This document shows positions 4,980-16,409 of a stretch of DNA of 16,409 bases, in pieces. Below the pieces are notes generated by a model. It saw only the letters and a list, made by a program, of their open reading frames with translations, ran no database searches and had not been told where the DNA came from. The DNA lies in assembly GCA_001799195.1 (NCBI GenBank), contig MGSU01000057.1:1-16409 (forward strand). The letters run 5' to 3'. This DNA is from Deltaproteobacteria bacterium RIFOXYA12_FULL_61_11 (GTDB lineage: Bacteria; Bdellovibrionota_F; JAHFAK01; YA12-FULL-61-11). The position numbers were made by a program, and so were the translations under genes. Each line of letters starts with the position of its first letter. Position 1 is the stretch's first letter.

Positions 4980-5522
4980 TCAATCCACGACACGCACCTT
5001 GACGGCCTGTAGGCCTTTCGGGCCTGGTTCGACGCAGAACTCGACCTCTTGGCCTTCCCTGAGGACGTTGAACCCATTGGTGATGATGGAGGAGAAATGC
5101 ACGAACAGGTCGCACCCTTCTTCCCGGGAGAGGAAACCGTGGCCTCTGGTGTCATTGAACCATTTCACCCTGCCCCGTTCCCGCTCGCTGCCGTCCGCGC
5201 AGAGTTCTTCCTCATCGGGCGGAGGAGAGGTTTCTTCCTCGAGGAGGGTGACTCGGACGGCTTGGAGACCCTTGGGCCCTTGCTCAACGCAGAATTCGAC
5301 CCGCTGGCCCTCGTGCAGGTTTTTGAATCCCTTCGTGATGATCGCGGTGAAATGTACGAACAGATCGGCGAGGCCTTCCTTGTCGGGATCGATGAAGCCG
5401 AAGCCCTTGGTGTCGTGGAACCACTTCACCGTGCCCTGGAGCCGCTCTCCGCGGGAAGCAAGGCAGTTCGAACCGAGGAACAGCCCGAGGGCCAGGAATA
5501 CTAATACCATGGTCCGGTGCAT
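4980..5522 (-). CDS. Exported or membrane-anchored protein with two cold-shock domains
   Basis: The protein has 180 residues. Residues 1-23 ([20 protein letters not shown] then LAS) form a hydrophobic segment like a signal peptide, with possible cleavage near A22. Two cold-shock (OB-fold) domains follow at about 28-93 and 117-178, joined by an acidic Pro-rich linker. Domain 1 has intact single-strand nucleic-acid motifs: RNP1 KGFGFI (39-44) and RNP2 LFVHF (54-58). Domain 2 keeps LFVHF (139-143) but its RNP1 reads RGHGFL, with a central aromatic lost. The domains are internal duplicates; EGQ-x-VEFCVE and GPKGLQAV occur in both. The start is well supported: AAGGAG lies six bases before the ATG, so the hydrophobic end is really translated. 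Ordinary Csp proteins are cytosolic single domains of about 70 residues. If exported, it would bind nucleic acid outside the cytoplasm; if anchored with the C-terminus inside, it would act at the membrane. Confidence 0.85.
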
Positions 5523-7531: not shown

Positions 7532-10500
7532 TCAGAAACCGTGTCCGCTCAGTCCGACCATCAAGCTGGGGTGGTGGTCCTGGTCCGGGATCAGGGTCAC
7601 CACGGGCAGGAGGATGCGTTCCCGAGCGTCGAGGTCGGGTGGGCGATGGTCCGGTCCGGGAGCGGGCCGGCTTTCTTTGGTCCAATCGAAGAACGAGGTG
7701 ACGAGTATCGAACCGAGGAGTCCCGACAGACCGCCGATGAGGATGCCCTGACGGATGGGAAGACCCGCGAGGCGGCCGAAGGCCGGGAAAAGGCCCATGC
7801 CCGCGAGACTGGACAGTTTGATGATGTAGAGCCTGGTACTGTTGGCATTGACCCAGGGTTGCAGGGTCAGGACGGAAGTCGCAATACCGAGGTTGCTGCC
7901 CACCAGGGCCGAGGTCAGACTCCAGCGGTAGCTGTGGTCTTCGACCAGGTCGGCGAACAGGAAGGCCAGCCAGCCTCCGTAGATGCCGCTCGACCCCAGG
8001 AGGAGGAGTTCGTAGGTGTCGAAGCTGAAGAACTCCTGGCTGAGTTCTCCGAGCAGATACCCCACGGCCTGGCCGAAGGCTGCCCCGCCAAGGAAGTTGC
8101 TTGGGTCGGGAGCATCGTAATGTAGGGTCCAACCCCAGCCGAGCCCCTGCAAGAGACCCCAGCTCGAGGCTCCGAGAGTTTGGAGAGGACGGGGTCCGAT
8201 GAGGTGATCATTGCGCGAGAACAAGGGGACCGCGACGGCAGCGCCAAGGCCTAACCCGAGGTTGGCAGCGATGGAAATCTCTCGGTTGGCCGAACCGTCA
8301 GGGAGGAGGTAGCCCAGGCCCCAACCCGCGCTCGAGCCCTGGAGGGTCCAGAGTGCGGTGCGACGCAGGGGAAAGACGTCCGAGCGCGGCGCAACGGCCA
8401 TGCTGCCGAGTAACCCCAAGGCCCCGCCGCCGAGAGTCACGAGAGGCCGGCGCCAGGATGCCTCGGAGTCGTCGAACAGCAGGCCGGCGCAGTAACCGTG
8501 ATAGAAACCGAGCGAGGTGAAGAAGGGAAGCATGCTCAGGCGCTCCCTGGGGATCGAGGGCAGTCGGGAGGAAAGGTCATACCCCAGGGGCAGCATGACG
8601 GGTATGGGGAGCAGGCCGACCAGAGCCACGTGGTGCGGATTGTCGAGGAAGAGCGAGCCGAGTCCCAGACCCACGAGGTTGCCGAGACCGGAGGCGAGGC
8701 TGAGCAGCGGGTAGTTGGGTGGGGGGAGGAAACCGGTCCTGGTGAGCAGGTCGGCAAGCGTCCCGGCGAGGCCGGCTCCGACCAGGGCTGTCCCGAGAGT
8801 GCGATCCTGGTCCAGATCGAGTCCATAGCCGAGCAGAGCCCCCTGGCTCGCGCCGAGGACCGAGAGGTCGGCAAGGCTCAGGGCGTGGACCAGGCCGAAG
8901 GGGCGATCGTTCAGAGCCAGGGCAAGCCCGAAGGAATGGAGATAGCCGCTGCCGAGAACCAGGGCATATGGCTGCCAGGAACCGAGGGTAGGTCCGAGAA
9001 GGAGGGCCGCGCCGCTGCCGCTGACCGTACCGAGGGTCAAGCCGGTGGTGAGGTCCAGGAAGGTGCCGGTGTCGATGGTTCGTTCATCGGTGAAGACGAG
9101 GCCGCCGGCGAGCCCTGTGGTGGTGCCGAGCAAGGCCTTGCCGTAAGCGCGGCGCAAGGCTGCCTGGGTCTCGACACCACTGGCATCATAGGATTGCACG
9201 AGGTAGTGGGCCCCTAAGCTCTGTTCCCGGTTGTGATCGACTAGGTCGAGCAGGACGCCGGTATACAGGCCGAGGACGCCGCTGTAGAGACCGGCGAGTC
9301 CCGGCCTGAGGTTGTGGGTCGGCGTTCCGGTCACGGCGAAGAGCGCACCGCCGAACGCGGCCGAACCGAGCATGGTGCCTGCCTGTATTCTGCTTCCAAG
9401 GTCGCCGAAGGCATGAAGGGCTCCGTAACCAGCGAGGCTGCCGACGACCACGCCCGAGGTGATGCAGAGGTCCGTATCCCAGGTTCTTTCGAGGTAGTTC
9501 CGGTTGAGACCTGCGCCGAGCAGCCCGAGGCTGCCGCCGAGGAGCACCCCTCCGAAACGGGCCCCGGAGTCGTCCGGATACGCGAGGCCTGAGGCAAGGA
9601 AACCGAGGTAGCCGGAGGTCAGACCGCTGAAGAGCAGGTCCTCGCGGACTCGTTGACCCTCGAGCTTGGGCGGGAAGAGGTACAGGTCCAGGGGGGGGAG
9701 GAGGAGGGTGCCTGCCAGGGTTGCTCCGGCCACGGCCTCGCGTTCGCGAAGACCCTCGGGCAGGAGCAAGCCAAGGCCGAGACCCAGCAGCGCCCCGTGA
9801 GCGCTATACAGAGAAAAGTCCTCGAAATCCGCCGAGGTCAGTCCGAGCTGACGGCCGAGGATGGTGCCGCCCATGAAGTAGGCGGCGCTGCCTGCCAGGG
9901 CTGCCCCTGGTAGCTTAGCCGAAGGAGAGGACGAGCTGGGCAAGGTCAGCGCAGCAAGGGTGAAGGTGCCAGCTCCGGTCAGGGCCGCAAAGCCCAGCCC
10001 GGGCAACCGCGGACGCAGTTCCTCGGCGGTGAGGTATTCGGTGCCGTACCACAGGCCGGGCAAGAAAGAGAGTACGGCGAGGTCGCTATACGGACGCCGG
10101 TCGAGTTCGGTCAGGCTCGCCACCAAGCCGTAGCCGAGCGCCGAGGTGAGCAAGCCGCCGTAGAGTGGGCGGTGCCCGGCGGCAGTGAAGGCGGGCCAGG
10201 TATTGGCTAGATAACGAGCCCCGACGTAACCGAGGCCGAGACCGGTGAGCCCGCTGGCCCCCGAGAGTTCTTCGTAGCCCAGCGCCGCGGGAGCGAAGTA
10301 GCCATAGTACCAACCCAGCAGGGACCACGGCACGGTCAGGGGGTGATGAGGTCGAGGCATGGTCGCCTCGAAGGCGAGGTTCTCGAGCGGCCCCAAGACG
10401 GCCGAGGTCAGGGCCGTGCCCCAGCGCCAGCGTTGATCGTCGGTGGCATAGCCGGCGAGACCGTAGTAGAAGAGGCGGCCATACCCCAAGGCGATCGGGG

Positions 10501-12433
10501 ACGGCAGCAACAGGGAGGTGCTGGAGTGGTCGTGATAGCCGGCGTAGAGTTCGATCGACGCTCCGAGCAGGCCGCTCCCGGCTGCAGCCAGCAAGGTCCT
10601 CTCGCCGGAGAGGTCGAACAGGGCTGCCCAACCCGCGCCCTCGACCGCGCCGAGCGCCGCACCGCTCAGATAGCGTGCTTGGTATTTCCGGTTCTCGTGG
10701 AAGAAGGGGCGGTCGCGGTAGGCAAAACCGAGCGCTTTGCCGGCCAGGAGACCCGCGAGGGCACTGGCATAATACGCGGTGGGTTCGGTCTTGAAAAAGC
10801 TTTCGCTGAGGAGCAGGCCGGCACCGCCGAGGTAGAGGGTGTGCTCCAGCCAGTGGAGGTTGCGGGCACGTGTGCTCTCGACCGGTTCGAGCGTGTGCAA
10901 GGCGACATAGTACCAGGCGCTGGAACAGAGCAGGGAACTTCCGAGCCAGCGCACGGTGTCTTCCTCGCCCCAGAGCGCGTTGCCCAGGAGGTAGCCTTCG
11001 ACGAGGCCGCTGAAGGACGCCCCGACCAGGTATTCGAGGTTCGGCCCCCGGTCGAGCGCGAAGTTGTCCGCGGCGAGCAGGTGGTAGGAGAAGCCGCTCC
11101 AACCCGACGCGATCATGGCTCCGTAGAGTACTGCGTCGTTGCCGAGTTGCTCTTCCGGCAGGTCGCCGGTGAGCATGCCGAGCAGACCCACGGTACCTGC
11201 CACGCTGACCGAGCCGCCGAGGTTGGCGAAGAGCAGTTCGTTCGTGGTGTAGTCGGCACCCTCGGTGGTCAAGATGCCGTAGCCGAGGCCCAGGGATTCT
11301 CCCAGGATCGAGGACAAACGGGTCCATTGGGCATCCTGGTCGAAGATGCGGTAGGCTGCCGCGCCGGTCAAGGCGCCCCAGGTGCCGAAGGTGCCGATGT
11401 AGGTGGGATCCTGGTAGTCGAAGGGTTGGTAGAGGCTCCACAGGTAGGTCGAGCCGCCGCCGACCAGCGCGCCCATAGAGGAATAGAGTACTGCGCTGGT
11501 GCCGCCGAGCTGGGCGATAGTGCCCATGGTGTACGCTCCGAAGGCCGAGTTCAGGGCGATGAGCATGAACCTGGCGTTGCGCTGCCGGCGTTTGTCCTGG
11601 AGCTCGCGCGCGACCGCCGCCTCGGCGGCGAGGTCTTCCTCGAGACGTTCGAGTTCGGCTGCTTCGGTCCCGAGGGCTCCGGCCTCGAGCGGCGGGGAGG
11701 TATCGGTGCTGACCTCGAGGGTAGGTAGTTGGGCCGCCTCTCCGGGAGACGGCGAGGGAGGAGGTTCGGTTATTTGCCCCGGATACCGTGGGCCGGGGGA
11801 CGAGGGTTGCGCGAGCAGGGGGTCGGAGGGGGAGGGAACCCGGGGAGCGAGTTCCTCGAGCAAGGCCGGTTGGTACCGGGCGAGGACACTCTCGAGCCAG
11901 GTGCGTTGCTGAGGATCGTCCTCGAGCGTTTGGTAGAGCTCGGCCAGGTGGTTCCTGGCACTGCCGGTCTCCTGTCGAGCCAGGGCTTCGAGGTAGGCTT
12001 CGGGTGGGGGATAGTCACTCGGATTGCTGTCGTTGTGGAGTTTGATCAGCCGCTTCGAAATCAGCTCGTGGGACCACTGGGAGGACAGCTCGAGCATCGT
12101 CGGCCGCAGCGCCCGCCGGTGAAAACCGTCGAGGAAGGAGGGGAGCAGGCGTTCATCTTTGGTCCCGGCCATGCGGCGAAGGCTCGCGGCCTGGTCCTCC
12201 GGCTCTGCCGAGAGTAGGTACCAATTGATCAGGTCGAGTACTTCGTCCTGCGTGAGGGAGGTTGGTCCCGGGACAGAGAGGTCGGAGCTGGACTCCGAGC
12301 TGGACTCCGGGGAGGCAAGAGTAGCTGCCGGCAGCAGGACGCTACCCAGCAGGATGACCTGAGGGAGCCGCAGCAGGGATCCTGCCCGGTTGAGCCAGGG
12401 ACGTGGGTGTTGCAAGGCGGTTTGAGGAACCAC
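7532..12433 (-). CDS. Giant Gly/Leu-rich multi-repeat membrane protein, unknown function
   Basis: About 1,633 residues; I recognise no family. The start taken is GTG at 12433 because GGAGG lies six bases before it; an open extension to 12661 would run into the divergent promoter area. Residues 1-40 are a signal peptide (VILLGSVLLPAATLA). Residues about 41-180 are helical and polar. Residues about 180-240 are Pro/Ser-rich (PPPSPSPGEAA). Residues about 250-295 are a charged helix likely to coil (ELERLEEDLAAEAAVARELQ). From about 300 to 1,590 hydrophobic stretches rich in G, L, A, S and Y follow one another, separated by short loops with D, E, R and P. Many share a G-x3-G or LG-x2-LG pattern (GALLGLGLGLLLPEG, GGALGLLGSMAV, GSLAGYGAL). 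Lysine and cysteine are scarce in this part. The tail is polar and ends SLMVGLSGHGF. It probably folds as dozens of packed membrane helices. It is coupled to the carrier gene downstream. Confidence 0.8.
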   Translation of the reverse strand: MVPQTALQHPRPWLNRAGSLLRLPQVILLGSVLLPAATLASPESSSESSSDLSVPGPTSLTQDEVLDLINWYLLSAEPEDQAASLRRMAGTKDERLLPSFLDGFHRRALRPTMLELSSQWSHELISKRLIKLHNDSNPSDYPPPEAYLEALARQETGSARNHLAELYQTLEDDPQQRTWLESVLARYQPALLEELAPRVPSPSDPLLAQPSSPGPRYPGQITEPPPSPSPGEAAQLPTLEVSTDTSPPLEAGALGTEAAELERLEEDLAAEAAVARELQDKRRQRNARFMLIALNSAFGAYTMGTIAQLGGTSAVLYSSMGALVGGGSTYLWSLYQPFDYQDPTYIGTFGTWGALTGAAAYRIFDQDAQWTRLSSILGESLGLGYGILTTEGADYTTNELLFANLGGSVSVAGTVGLLGMLTGDLPEEQLGNDAVLYGAMIASGWSGFSYHLLAADNFALDRGPNLEYLVGASFSGLVEGYLLGNALWGEEDTVRWLGSSLLCSSAWYYVALHTLEPVESTRARNLHWLEHTLYLGGAGLLLSESFFKTEPTAYYASALAGLLAGKALGFAYRDRPFFHENRKYQARYLSGAALGAVEGAGWAALFDLSGERTLLAAAGSGLLGASIELYAGYHDHSSTSLLLPSPIALGYGRLFYYGLAGYATDDQRWRWGTALTSAVLGPLENLAFEATMPRPHHPLTVPWSLLGWYYGYFAPAALGYEELSGASGLTGLGLGYVGARYLANTWPAFTAAGHRPLYGGLLTSALGYGLVASLTELDRRPYSDLAVLSFLPGLWYGTEYLTAEELRPRLPGLGFAALTGAGTFTLAALTLPSSSSPSAKLPGAALAGSAAYFMGGTILGRQLGLTSADFEDFSLYSAHGALLGLGLGLLLPEGLREREAVAGATLAGTLLLPPLDLYLFPPKLEGQRVREDLLFSGLTSGYLGFLASGLAYPDDSGARFGGVLLGGSLGLLGAGLNRNYLERTWDTDLCITSGVVVGSLAGYGALHAFGDLGSRIQAGTMLGSAAFGGALFAVTGTPTHNLRPGLAGLYSGVLGLYTGVLLDLVDHNREQSLGAHYLVQSYDASGVETQAALRRAYGKALLGTTTGLAGGLVFTDERTIDTGTFLDLTTGLTLGTVSGSGAALLLGPTLGSWQPYALVLGSGYLHSFGLALALNDRPFGLVHALSLADLSVLGASQGALLGYGLDLDQDRTLGTALVGAGLAGTLADLLTRTGFLPPPNYPLLSLASGLGNLVGLGLGSLFLDNPHHVALVGLLPIPVMLPLGYDLSSRLPSIPRERLSMLPFFTSLGFYHGYCAGLLFDDSEASWRRPLVTLGGGALGLLGSMAVAPRSDVFPLRRTALWTLQGSSAGWGLGYLLPDGSANREISIAANLGLGLGAAVAVPLFSRNDHLIGPRPLQTLGASSWGLLQGLGWGWTLHYDAPDPSNFLGGAAFGQAVGYLLGELSQEFFSFDTYELLLLGSSGIYGGWLAFLFADLVEDHSYRWSLTSALVGSNLGIATSVLTLQPWVNANSTRLYIIKLSSLAGMGLFPAFGRLAGLPIRQGILIGGLSGLLGSILVTSFFDWTKESRPAPGPDHRPPDLDARERILLPVVTLIPDQDHHPSLMVGLSGHGF

Positions 12434-12626
12434 CAACGACCTCCGCGCGTTAGTTCCACAATAGTGTATGCAGGAGATCGGGGCAGAAGTCACGACCTTT
12501 ACCACCTCGCCGGGTGCAGTAGCCGAGAGGTGTGACTTGCCACCTCGCGGGCCGGCGAGTACAGTCATCCAGCAGAGCGGCTCCGAACGGAGCCTTGTGG
12601 CGACAACCGAGGAAACCCTGCGTTCG
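12434..12626. promoter_or_regulatory. Divergent promoter region between giant gene and ppx-like gene
   Basis: The two large genes are transcribed away from each other, so this gap should hold promoters for both. The ribosome site GGAGG of the giant gene is at 12444-12440. On the minus strand TACACT at about 12468-12463 with GTGACT 19 bases further upstream is a weak promoter candidate. A repeat cluster is present: CCACCTCGC occurs twice in direct order (12502-12510 and 12540-12548), and GAGGTG at 12527-12532 is the inverted copy of the CACCTC part of each. This could be an operator or a transcribed stem-loop. The ppx-like frame is open through this region back to 12468, so part of it may be coding if an earlier start is used. 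Confidence 0.35.
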
Positions 12627-13754
12627 ATGCGTGAGAAGAATTGGGAGGACGAGCCCACCAATCGTTATCCGCGTTTGTTGCGGTACTTCGACCGAGAGCG
12701 CGGCTTCGGACTCCACCACCATGTGGCGATCTTCGACCTTGGTACGCGCGCGGTCAGGGTCTTGGTCGCCCCCCGCGTACTGGAATCCGAGGACTGGAAC
12801 CGCGAGCGCTTCTACAATGCCGCGAGCATGCTCGAGCTCGGTACCGAGTTGGTCCGCAATGGTTTCCAGCTCTCGCTTTCCTCGCTCTCGTTGGCGCGAA
12901 CCATCGAATTCGTGATCGGCTTCCGGGATGTCCTGGTCGCCCATGGGTTTCGACCCGAGGATTTTTACCTCGTCGGTACGGCCGTCTTCCGCTGGATGCG
13001 GAATCGCGAGGAAGTCTTGCGCTACCTCTTCGAGACCACCGCGCTCACTCCCTCCATCCTCGACGATCGGTCCGAAGCCCTGGCCGGGCTGGACGGTCTC
13101 TTGGCTACCTACCGGGTACCCGCGTCAAAGGCGACGATGAGTTTTCCCACCGAGGCGTTCCGGTTGGTCCTGATCGATCAGGGAGGCGGGTCCACCGAAG
13201 TGTCCAGCGCCGTGGTTGGACGGGAGGATCCTGGTCTGATCACGCATTCCTTCGATTTGCTCGGTTCGATGTCGCTGCGCGAACGCTTCCTCTCCCCTGC
13301 CTTGGGAACCCTCACGTCCCGAAGTGTGTTACAACGCTGGTTGGCCGGCCTCGAGCCCGAGGTGGAAGCCCACATCGAGTCCGAATTGGAACCCTTCGCC
13401 CTCTCTTGGACGAAGGGGGCGCCCTTGATCGGTTATGCGGTGGGTACCGCGATCGTGCGTTGTTCGCCGTTGCGCAATAATCACGACCTCCACAATCAAC
13501 TCCTCGATCTCTCCCAACTCGAGGGTAGTCGGGTGGAGTTGCGAGAACGTATCCATAGTATTCTCGATCGCGGGCGCGGCGATTTCGCCGCGTGTCCCGG
13601 GGTCGAATACCTGCTCGACCGCTTGCTCGGCCTGGCGGTGTATCGCACGCTGTTGCGGCGTTTCGGCCTGACCACGGTGAGGCTGTGCGGTTACGGCTTG
13701 CGTTACGGGGTGTACTGGGGAAGGGTCTTGGGGCGTTCGATCGGGCAAGGGTGA
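12627..13754 (+). CDS. Ppx/GppA-family phosphatase-like protein (short form)
   Basis: About 375 residues of the exopolyphosphatase / pppGpp phosphatase family (actin-like ASKHA fold, cytosolic), which splits phosphate from polyphosphate or guanosine pentaphosphate. The visible motifs are the first phosphate loop AIFDLGTRAVRVLV (family DxGSNSxRL), the catalytic-glutamate region LDDRSEALAGLDG, the second loop LIDQGGGSTEVS, and the C-terminal CGYGLRYGVYWG (family S-G-GLR-x-G). It lacks the extra C-terminal HD-like domain of long Ppx. The first loop has R where N/S is usual, so its substrate may differ. The start is uncertain: ATG 12627 lies just before the conserved part, GTG 12597 has GGAG four bases before it, and the frame is open to ATG 12468. 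yacG follows 34 bases downstream and is probably co-transcribed. The giant gene is divergent. Confidence 0.8.
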   Translation: MREKNWEDEPTNRYPRLLRYFDRERGFGLHHHVAIFDLGTRAVRVLVAPRVLESEDWNRERFYNAASMLELGTELVRNGFQLSLSSLSLARTIEFVIGFRDVLVAHGFRPEDFYLVGTAVFRWMRNREEVLRYLFETTALTPSILDDRSEALAGLDGLLATYRVPASKATMSFPTEAFRLVLIDQGGGSTEVSSAVVGREDPGLITHSFDLLGSMSLRERFLSPALGTLTSRSVLQRWLAGLEPEVEAHIESELEPFALSWTKGAPLIGYAVGTAIVRCSPLRNNHDLHNQLLDLSQLEGSRVELRERIHSILDRGRGDFAACPGVEYLLDRLLGLAVYRTLLRRFGLTTVRLCGYGLRYGVYWGRVLGRSIGQG

Positions 13755-15505: not shown

Positions 15506-16324
15506 TCACGGCTCAGCCCCCCTCCACGGCTCGCCAGGTAGCTTCGCGATCAGCTCGTCCTTCACTACCTCCGCGGCCTTCACGGGGTTGTACTCGACCT
15601 CGGGCGGAATCAACAGACGGAGGTCCTCGAGGAACACGGCGCTCGCGAGCTTGGCTGCGAGGTTTGCCTCGAACTCGGCGCGCGACACGGTGGCACCGTC
15701 GTGGTCCATGTAGCGCCGAAAGCATTCGACGACGCGGTCGGGGCTCGGCTTGCCCGTGCCGAGCGCGAGCCAGAGATCGTAAAGATCGCGCCCCTTCTTG
15801 CGCTGGTAGAGAGCGCGCAGCTTGGTTCCGAGGAGTTCGTCGAGGTGATACACCGTGAGCGCGGCCGTGCCGGTGAACCACGGGTTCTCGACGGTGAACG
15901 GTCGCGTGTCGGTCCCGAGGACCGCAAAGTGCTCGCGGGTGTTGATCTCGATCTTCAGCCGCCTGGTCGAGACCGGCGCGAAGGAGGTCTCGAAACGGTA
16001 GAAGAGCGTGAAGCGTCCCTGCCCCTGCTTCCACCTCGGGCTGCCGAGCCACGAGTCGAGGGTTTTGCGGATGGCGTCGATCACCTCGCTGATCGGACCG
16101 GCATCGCGCTGCACGAGGTCGATGTCCTCGGAGTAGCGAGCACCCGCACCGAAGAAGAGTTTGTGCAAGGCGGTGCCACCACGGAAGACGACCCGGTCGG
16201 CCACGAGCTTCTGACTGAACATGGCGATCAGCGCACGGCAGAGCACCAGGTCCTGCTCTACTTGCTCGTTGGAGGGCCACGGCGCGACGGTGCGCCAGGC
16301 GGTAATGTTAGCGCGCGGGATCAA
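15506..16324 (-). CDS. AbiEii-type nucleotidyltransferase toxin
   Basis: A 272-residue member of the AbiEii/AbiGii toxin family (DNA polymerase beta-like nucleotidyltransferase fold, cytosolic) of type IV / MenT-like toxin-antitoxin systems, linked to phage defence. Seen from the chosen start are: the family N-terminus IPRANITAWRTVAPW and QVEQDLVLCRAL, the nucleotidyltransferase motif FRGGTALHKL (G49-G50-T51), metal aspartates in YSEDIDLV (D67, D69), and the late motif QRKKGRDLYDLWLAL. The start is taken as TTG at 16324, not ATG at 16363. A GGAGGGGG site lies just before TTG, family members begin with M-I-P-R at this point, and TTG overlaps the stop of the preceding frame by four bases (TTGA). 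The ATG start would add 13 residues and overlap the antitoxin by 43 bases. No break is seen; the gene looks intact. Confidence 0.9.
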   Translation of the reverse strand: MIPRANITAWRTVAPWPSNEQVEQDLVLCRALIAMFSQKLVADRVVFRGGTALHKLFFGAGARYSEDIDLVQRDAGPISEVIDAIRKTLDSWLGSPRWKQGQGRFTLFYRFETSFAPVSTRRLKIEINTREHFAVLGTDTRPFTVENPWFTGTAALTVYHLDELLGTKLRALYQRKKGRDLYDLWLALGTGKPSPDRVVECFRRYMDHDGATVSRAEFEANLAAKLASAVFLEDLRLLIPPEVEYNPVKAAEVVKDELIAKLPGEPWRGAEP

Positions 16325-16409
16325 ACGTCCCCCTCCAGTTCGGTGTTTGGCACGACTCGCCATTTCGGGTCGGCCTCGACGTCCGTCGCCTCTCCCTGTC
16401 GCAGGAGCA
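16321..16409 (-). CDS. Partial AbiEi-like antitoxin (C-terminal end)
   Basis: Read on the minus strand from the right edge, a frame stays open for 28 residues (ending DPKWRVVPNTELEGDV) and stops with TGA at 16323-16321, overlapping the toxin's TTG start by four bases. Antitoxin genes (AbiEi or DUF6088-like) normally precede and overlap AbiEii genes in just this way, and the D-P-K-W-R-V-V-P stretch looks like real protein. The fragment is too short to identify the family by sequence; the call rests mainly on position. The N-terminus, presumably a winged-helix DNA-binding part that represses the operon, lies beyond the window. Confidence 0.6.
   Translation of the reverse strand, partial: LLRQGEATDVEADPKWRVVPNTELEGDV

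Follow-up and report, generated by a model that had tools for sequence, protein, structure and literature searches.

With very few exceptions, the integral proteins known from the outer membrane are β-barrels, since α-helices that are hydrophobic enough for a membrane are caught in the inner membrane, and we know of no outer membrane described as holding many-helix proteins. In the Wza pore each of eight subunits contributes its C-terminal domain, glycine-zipper proteins of the YiaD type and of the bacteriocin type have one or few zipper segments, and Piezo channels carry very many helices in repeats within one chain, as does the protein described here. The Sec translocon sorts its clients by hydrophobicity, sending strongly hydrophobic helices to the inner membrane and letting weaker segments pass, and the strict beta-signal reads G-X-X-aromatic-X-aromatic (PMC13067283). 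Carriers of the TLC family occur in free-living bacteria, often fused to HEAT repeats (PMC5381601).

The locus compared here with these systems lies in a contig of Deltaproteobacteria bacterium RIFOXYA12_FULL_61_11 (assembly GCA_001799195.1, contig MGSU01000057.1), of which a stretch of 16,409 nucleotides, hereafter the window, was analysed. It encodes a very large exported protein (the giant protein), directly followed by a gene for a TLC carrier (Table 1).

Gene structure and N-terminal region

The minus-strand frame of the giant gene runs without a break over 7535-12433, with the stop codon at 7532-7534, and its GC content by codon position (0.68/0.51/0.79) is coding-like. The single open frame of 4.9 kb with a good ribosome site that the initial annotation had reported is confirmed, and its proposal that the gene is under selection is supported by homologous frames in other phyla. 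No stretch of 16 nt or more recurs identically in the DNA of the gene, so the array is not an assembly repeat and is old and diverged; as homologues also exist, an assembly artefact was discarded as the origin of the gene. A divergent gene for a Ppx/GppA family phosphatase (PF02541, E 1e-9; 12468-13754, plus strand) has its upstream region in common with the giant gene.

Table 1. Features of the giant gene, its product and the adjacent carrier gene in the window
Feature	Positions	Strand	Details and basis
Giant exported helical-array protein, 1633 aa	7532..12433	minus	GTG start; open frame and translation, homology to exported array proteins encoded in other phyla
Ribosome-binding site GGAGG	12440..12444	minus	6 nt before GTG, read directly in the sequence
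Putative signal peptide, residues 1-40	12314..12433	minus	Basic n-region, LPQVILLGSVLLPAA, TLA/SP; sequence and hydropathy
N-terminal domain, residues 57-200	11834..12265	minus	About 150 residues, probably helical
Linker rich in Pro and Ser, and a charged helix (AAELERLEEDLAAEAAVARELQDKRRQ), residues 199-288	11570..11839	minus	Composition of residues 1-290
Array of 45 glycine-zipper helices, residues 288-1582	7688..11572	minus	Periodicity, segmentation, AlphaFold2 (relative; window at low confidence)
Strand-like hairpin ILLPVVTLIPDQDHHPSLMVGLSGHGF, residues 1602-1633, final Phe	7535..7630	minus	Aligns collinearly with the C-terminal ends of relatives
TLC/NTT ATP-ADP carrier family protein, 431 aa	6235..7530	minus	PF03219, E 2.1e-25, 89.9 bits against a gathering threshold of 21

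The n-, h- and c-regions of a putative Sec signal peptide were read directly from the sequence, and the relatives described below likewise have signal-peptide-like N-terminal stretches. By composition, a Ser/Pro/Glu-rich part follows the signal-peptide-like stretch, so that sequence, hydropathy and composition agree with the signal peptide and Pro/Ser-rich N-terminal part noted initially. No HEAT repeats were detected in the N-terminal domain, either by Pfam or by hhalign against a profile of the HEAT N-termini of relatives (probability 0.2).

Detection and anatomy of the family

The giant protein was initially described as belonging to no recognised family, and the searches of curated libraries bear this out. 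A full Pfam scan yielded no family (the best match, E 0.083, was a holin fragment far below cut-off), and no match was found in NCBIfam, PHROGs or the PDB sequences. Searches with the whole protein returned nothing from its own phylum (one other genome), 57 further genomes, genome contigs, plasmids or IMG/VR, and a literature search found no published description of such a protein family.

Relatives were recovered with profiles of the repeats. Repeat alignments of four and nine helices were misaligned and left out; a two-helix alignment (A3), made from 20 two-helix units of the window protein, was used instead and searched in 386 genomes. It gave two real matches, a frame of 1971 aa in genome G151 and one of 464 aa in genome G053. 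From G151 the search extended to a paralogue of 1773 aa in the same genome and two relatives in genome G289, and profiles of these first relatives (A4, A9) matched members in further lineages. Of 371 genomes sampled, 26 had a match at E <=0.001, some of them to the N-terminal domain only or weak. Other A3 and A4 matches (L098, L099, L100, L102-L104, L145, L147, L148) were discarded after reading as chance hits.

Profiles built without the window protein recover it, and the homology is thus not circular: in searches of 2,614 frames and 400 shuffles (best shuffle E 0.5), the C-terminal part of the window protein scores at E 3.6e-11 with a profile of G151a, G151b and G289b, and its frame at E 1.5e-4 with one made from the array start. 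At both of its ends the array aligns collinearly between the window protein and the G151 proteins. On these comparisons of sequences, the assignment of the giant protein to an exported family absent from the curated libraries searched is well supported, as is the array itself, and the object that had first been flagged as unusual is real and stands at the giant end of an apparently undescribed bacterial family.

Members of the family range from 380 to 1971 aa and from 8 to 54 helices, and occur in candidate division TA06 (two MAGs), Ca. Hatepunaea, Ignavibacteria and Calditrichia, among other lineages. Their N-terminal domains vary, with HEAT repeats in the G151 and G289 proteins and TPR-like α-helical stretches in some members (by eye). 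The short group has a small α/β domain at this place, and the model of that domain bears a weak likeness to COMM domains (VIA Z 5.4, rmsd 2.8 over 59 residues). The 1971-aa protein combines a signal-peptide-like start, a Pfam HEAT match (HEAT_2, E 3.8e-11), a Pro-rich linker and a period of 30.8 residues. Directly ahead of the first helix, most members carry the motif D-Q-[SE]-G-R, in which G-R is nearly invariant. An internal unit of 119-124 residues (four helices) is seen in the large G151 proteins, and one of 57-58 residues (two helices) in the short members. One relative is weakly matched by the NCBIfam model YiaD_Gzip_OmpA (E 0.041), at 13.6 bits where the curated cut-off is 175.

Several further observations were made at the loci of relatives. 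G151 has a third member of the giant family (L121, contig C33, 60577-61318), a broken copy with an in-frame TAG, and at L178 (868-1929, minus) the N-terminal α/β domain of the short group stands ahead of a four-segment glycine zipper. In three genomes (L101, L119 and L120, in G053, G390 and G391) the short member lies, by eye, directly downstream of a gene resembling ETF-ubiquinone oxidoreductase; riboflavin genes are nearby in all three and a nadC-like gene in G053 and G390 (both by eye). The window also contains nadC (299-1228, by eye).

Repeat array and predicted fold

Dynamic-programming segmentation divides the array into 45 uncharged segments rich in Gly, Leu, Ala and Ser, spaced 29.0 ± 2.8 residues apart, and the spectrum of polar residues in the protein has a 29-residue peak of 94 times the mean power. 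Of its about 1,300 residues, Gly makes up 14.7%, Leu 19.1%, Ala 10.9%, Ser 8.0% and Tyr 4.8%, with Val and Ile together at about 6% and a (V+I)/L ratio of 0.30. Gly-Gly pairs at +4 number 52, compared with 29 in shuffles (z 5.2), and pairs at +8 are also enriched (z 3.5), so that the giant protein has the excess of Gly-x3-Gly characteristic of glycine-zipper helix proteins. The Gly/Leu/Ala/Ser/Tyr-rich repeats with G-x3-G patterns listed in the initial annotation therefore exceed chance by far, and its suggestion of a glycine-zipper-like assembly finds support in the form of a periodic helical array behind a signal peptide. Repetition at the sequence level is present in the array but strongly eroded: a four-helix profile from the first half matches the second half at 20.6 bits (shuffles < -26), whereas the reverse test did not succeed. 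Neither a phase nor a four-helix super-period was significant when the window's helices were tested one by one.

The hydropathy and Leu spectra of the array peak near 85-90 degrees, which together with the spacing of Gly at +4 and +8 fits helices with Gly-x3-Gly faces. In line with this, AlphaFold2 places eleven α-helices of about 24 residues in the 444-aa relative from G053 (eight sequences, mean pLDDT 71). The helices of this model are 22-26 residues long at a spacing of 29 residues throughout the array (111-136, 141-162, 169-194 ... 375-398), with block pLDDT values of about 71-87; an N-terminal α/β domain precedes them and a tail of low confidence follows. A similar succession of helices was predicted for residues 1196-1633 of the window protein (seven sequences, mean pLDDT 47.9), at a confidence that allows only secondary structure to be read. 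The models thus give helices rather than transmembrane β-strands, with good confidence in the relative and low confidence in the window protein, and that the giant protein's repeats form α-helices is well supported by these predictions. They contradict the plain outer-membrane barrel that had been named initially as the contrary outcome. The proposed comparison with solved structures gave no convincing match; the model of the relative returned only generic transporter-like folds (Foldseek best E 0.14; VIA Z <=5.8), among them inner-membrane transporters such as MurJ and MATE, a null result that at such model confidence says nothing for or against a new fold.

Some properties of the array would also suit a β-barrel or β-solenoid in which each 29-residue unit is a two-strand hairpin. 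This arrangement would put the charged loops all on one side, fitting the absence of charge alternation reported below, and would be in keeping with the C-terminal strand and with the two-residue periodicity of Gly in the array (z 5.2 at 175 degrees). The Gly peak can, however, be a harmonic of the Gly peak at 85-90 degrees, the hydropathy and Leu peaks lie at 85-90 rather than 180 degrees, the (V+I)/L ratio is low, and AlphaFold2 gives helices for the relative and the window protein alike, so that a β-structured array is very improbable.

C-terminal tail and membrane location

The last 30 or so residues of the giant protein resemble two β-strands, and the tail of the family consists of a Pro-containing strand, a turn and a last strand. 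Amongst the complete members, the final residue is Phe in 21 of 27, with Trp in 1, His in 2 and Arg in 3 (two of the Arg-ending members lack the tail hairpin); the G151a and G151b proteins end in WYH and G289b in R. The background of terminal Phe in the loci of the family is 6.1%, and the binomial probability for 20 of 25 against this background, 2e-20, is overstated because the members are related. The C-terminus of the window protein, LSGHGF, departs from the strict beta-signal, and in the two AlphaFold2 models the hairpin comes out either without structure or with low confidence. Two paralogous short members in a JAKPUX MAG (L155 and L157) both lack the hairpin that is found in nearly all others.

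The repeat segments are weakly hydrophobic in every lineage of the family. Their mean Kyte-Doolittle values are 0.76-1.40 in 12 members, whereas nine inner-membrane proteins encoded at the same loci reach 1.90-2.12, a gap that is inflated by the choice of the control helices by a hydropathy cut-off, and at 1.17 against about 2.0 the array does not have the strongly hydrophobic helices of an inner-membrane transporter. The dozens of probable membrane helices of the initial annotation thus hold as a helical array, but one whose segments fall short of the hydrophobicity typical of helices in the inner membrane. Lys and Arg in alternate loops number 27/29 in the window protein, 60/55 in G151a and 57/39 in G151b (p 0.054). 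These counts carry weight mainly in the large proteins, as the controls, which are too small for a firm contrast, show weak and no clear charge asymmetry with this segmentation, leaving the positive-inside test little power elsewhere. The genome encodes Omp85 proteins, indicating that the organism has an outer membrane. At two loci (L177, 1003-1947, minus; L179, 1-1092, plus) the α/β domain of the short members, which has no Pfam name, precedes what appear by eye to be outer-membrane β-barrels, though Pfam lends the barrel assignment no support. Taken together, low hydrophobicity, lack of clear charge alternation, an outer-membrane-type C-terminus and an N-terminal domain shared with putative barrels point away from the cytoplasmic membrane and favour the outer-membrane side, with a chance of about one in two once the inner-membrane, pore and periplasmic alternatives are counted.

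The same segments could instead belong to a polytopic inner-membrane protein with an N-terminal domain sent to the periplasm by a cleaved signal peptide, whose 45 helices would be inserted with the help of their neighbours and form a scaffold or channel around the ATP/ADP carrier. The segments are of membrane length and free of charges, some polytopic proteins do take up Gly-rich helices of low hydrophobicity, the adjacent gene encodes an inner-membrane transporter (TLC, PF03219), and the weak fold matches of the relative are to inner-membrane transporters such as MurJ and MATE. We nevertheless regard this location as unlikely, if still deserving consideration, given that the segments of the 12 relatives are on average less hydrophobic than the inner-membrane helices of the same loci, that neither the window protein nor G151a alternates in charge, and that the C-termini are of outer-membrane type and the linkage with the carrier is not conserved.

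The reading that we prefer, with a probability of roughly one half, is that the giant protein is a Sec-exported, glycine-zippered α-helical array forming a continuous ribbon or scaffold on the outer-membrane side, with its C-terminal strand docked there. After cleavage of the signal peptide the chain would pass into the periplasm, its helices being too weakly hydrophobic for efficient retention by the Sec translocon. About 45 helices, each 20-25 residues in length and linked at 29-residue intervals by short charged loops, would pack side by side through Gly/Ala/Ser faces, the C-terminal strand might dock at the Omp85/BAM machinery or at another outer-membrane partner, and the array would be laid into or against the outer membrane. 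That BAM is known for β-barrels, and that the helical outer-membrane proteins of the textbooks form oligomers without needing BAM (PMC13067283), counts against this reading. The most likely role would be a structural one, that of a long ribbon, its length set by the number of helices, which would tether an N-terminal domain in the periplasm that varies across the family (in relatives HEAT, TPR-like or COMM-like). Tentatively, and with the odds leaning somewhat against it, we also propose that this undescribed, widespread family inserts its 8-54 helices into the outer membrane by means of an OMP-like C-terminal strand, as a second class of integral proteins beside the β-barrels.

Two other arrangements were weighed. 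On the same evidence for the outer-membrane side, one or more single-chain α-helical barrels could form a pore with a function like that of Wza, since α-helical outer-membrane pores exist (Wza, PMC9601211; PMC13067283) and small-residue faces would suit helix packing; helix numbers varying from 8 to 54, however, argue against a closed barrel of defined size and for a ribbon or scaffold, and there is no structural match, which makes a pore improbable. The uncharged hydrophobic surface, open-ended repeat number, export and anchor-like C-terminus would also be expected of a periplasm-spanning solenoid of stacked helical hairpins that moves or stores lipid between the membranes in a groove and is anchored at the outer membrane by the C-terminal strand. 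By estimate, a stack of about 22 hairpins, each taking up roughly 10 Angstrom, would span about 220 Angstrom. Members with 8-11 helices would be far too short for bridging the periplasm, and the fold searches returned no known lipid-transfer fold, so that we consider such a solenoid less probable again than a pore.

Downstream carrier and other genes of the window

The carrier gene begins 1 nt past the stop codon of the giant gene (TGACATG), as the initial annotation had noted in calling it an immediate downstream partner, and the two genes are probably cotranscribed in this genome. The suggested conservation of this linkage failed in the survey of homologues: a TLC gene was found in the sampled flanks of 0 of 21 loci of the giant family, no giant gene lies near about 40 TLC loci elsewhere, and neither of two further TLC copies in the same genome has one beside it. 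The carrier was therefore rejected as a conserved partner, the linkage being seen only at the window, and given that TLC proteins occur in free-living bacteria and are often fused to HEAT repeats, its position next to the giant gene may be coincidental.

The MAG has at least three TLC/NTT carrier genes (in the window and on G000 contigs C316 and C116), of which those of the window and C316 are about 26% identical; several such genes are unusual for an apparently free-living genome of 4.6 Mb. Elsewhere in the window, an AbiEii-type nucleotidyltransferase toxin (PF08843, E 1e-39; 15506-16363, minus) lies at the contig end, with any antitoxin beyond it, and a 180-aa protein (4980-5522, minus) carries two tandem cold-shock domains (PF00313) behind an apparent hydrophobic signal-like start, which is odd for a nucleic-acid-binding domain.

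Comparison with known systems

We know of no counterpart to the architecture of this exported family. Whatever its location, an array of 45-54 helices with a single period and variable length, and with no relative in Pfam, NCBIfam or the PDB, constitutes a new protein architecture; it is present in at least four named deep lineages, and the relatives of 380-470 aa are open to expression and structure solution. Only the downstream gene of the window belongs with the TLC/NTT carriers (PF03219), including the NTT-HEAT fusions (PMC5381601); the giant protein does not. Piezo channels differ in that the giant protein is bacterial, is exported and has single-helix repeats of 29 residues, and the full Pfam scan found no Piezo domains in it.

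The glycine-zipper envelope proteins (YiaD-type lipoproteins; a Caulobacter bacteriocin, PMC5380434) are likewise exported and have Gly-x3-Gly helices, but the giant protein has 45 segments in a strict 29-residue period and the one relative touched by the YiaD model stays below the curated cut-off. Wza/OPX proteins and secretin regions share with the proposed reading an α-helix on the outer-membrane side of diderms, and differ from the giant family in that the latter has a single chain of 8-54 helices with no match to them in sequence or fold; no OPX domain was matched by Pfam in the giant protein at E 1. With the outer-membrane β-barrels that are substrates of BAM, the family has in common a putative signal peptide, weakly hydrophobic membrane segments, a putative amphipathic C-terminal strand with terminal Phe in most members and, in short members, an N-terminal domain apparently also found in putative barrels. 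The body of the giant family is, in contrast, predicted to be α-helical, and the window C-terminus lies off the strict motif; if the glycine-zippered helices are indeed placed in the outer membrane, the family would provide a direct test of the rule that integral proteins there are nearly all β-barrels.
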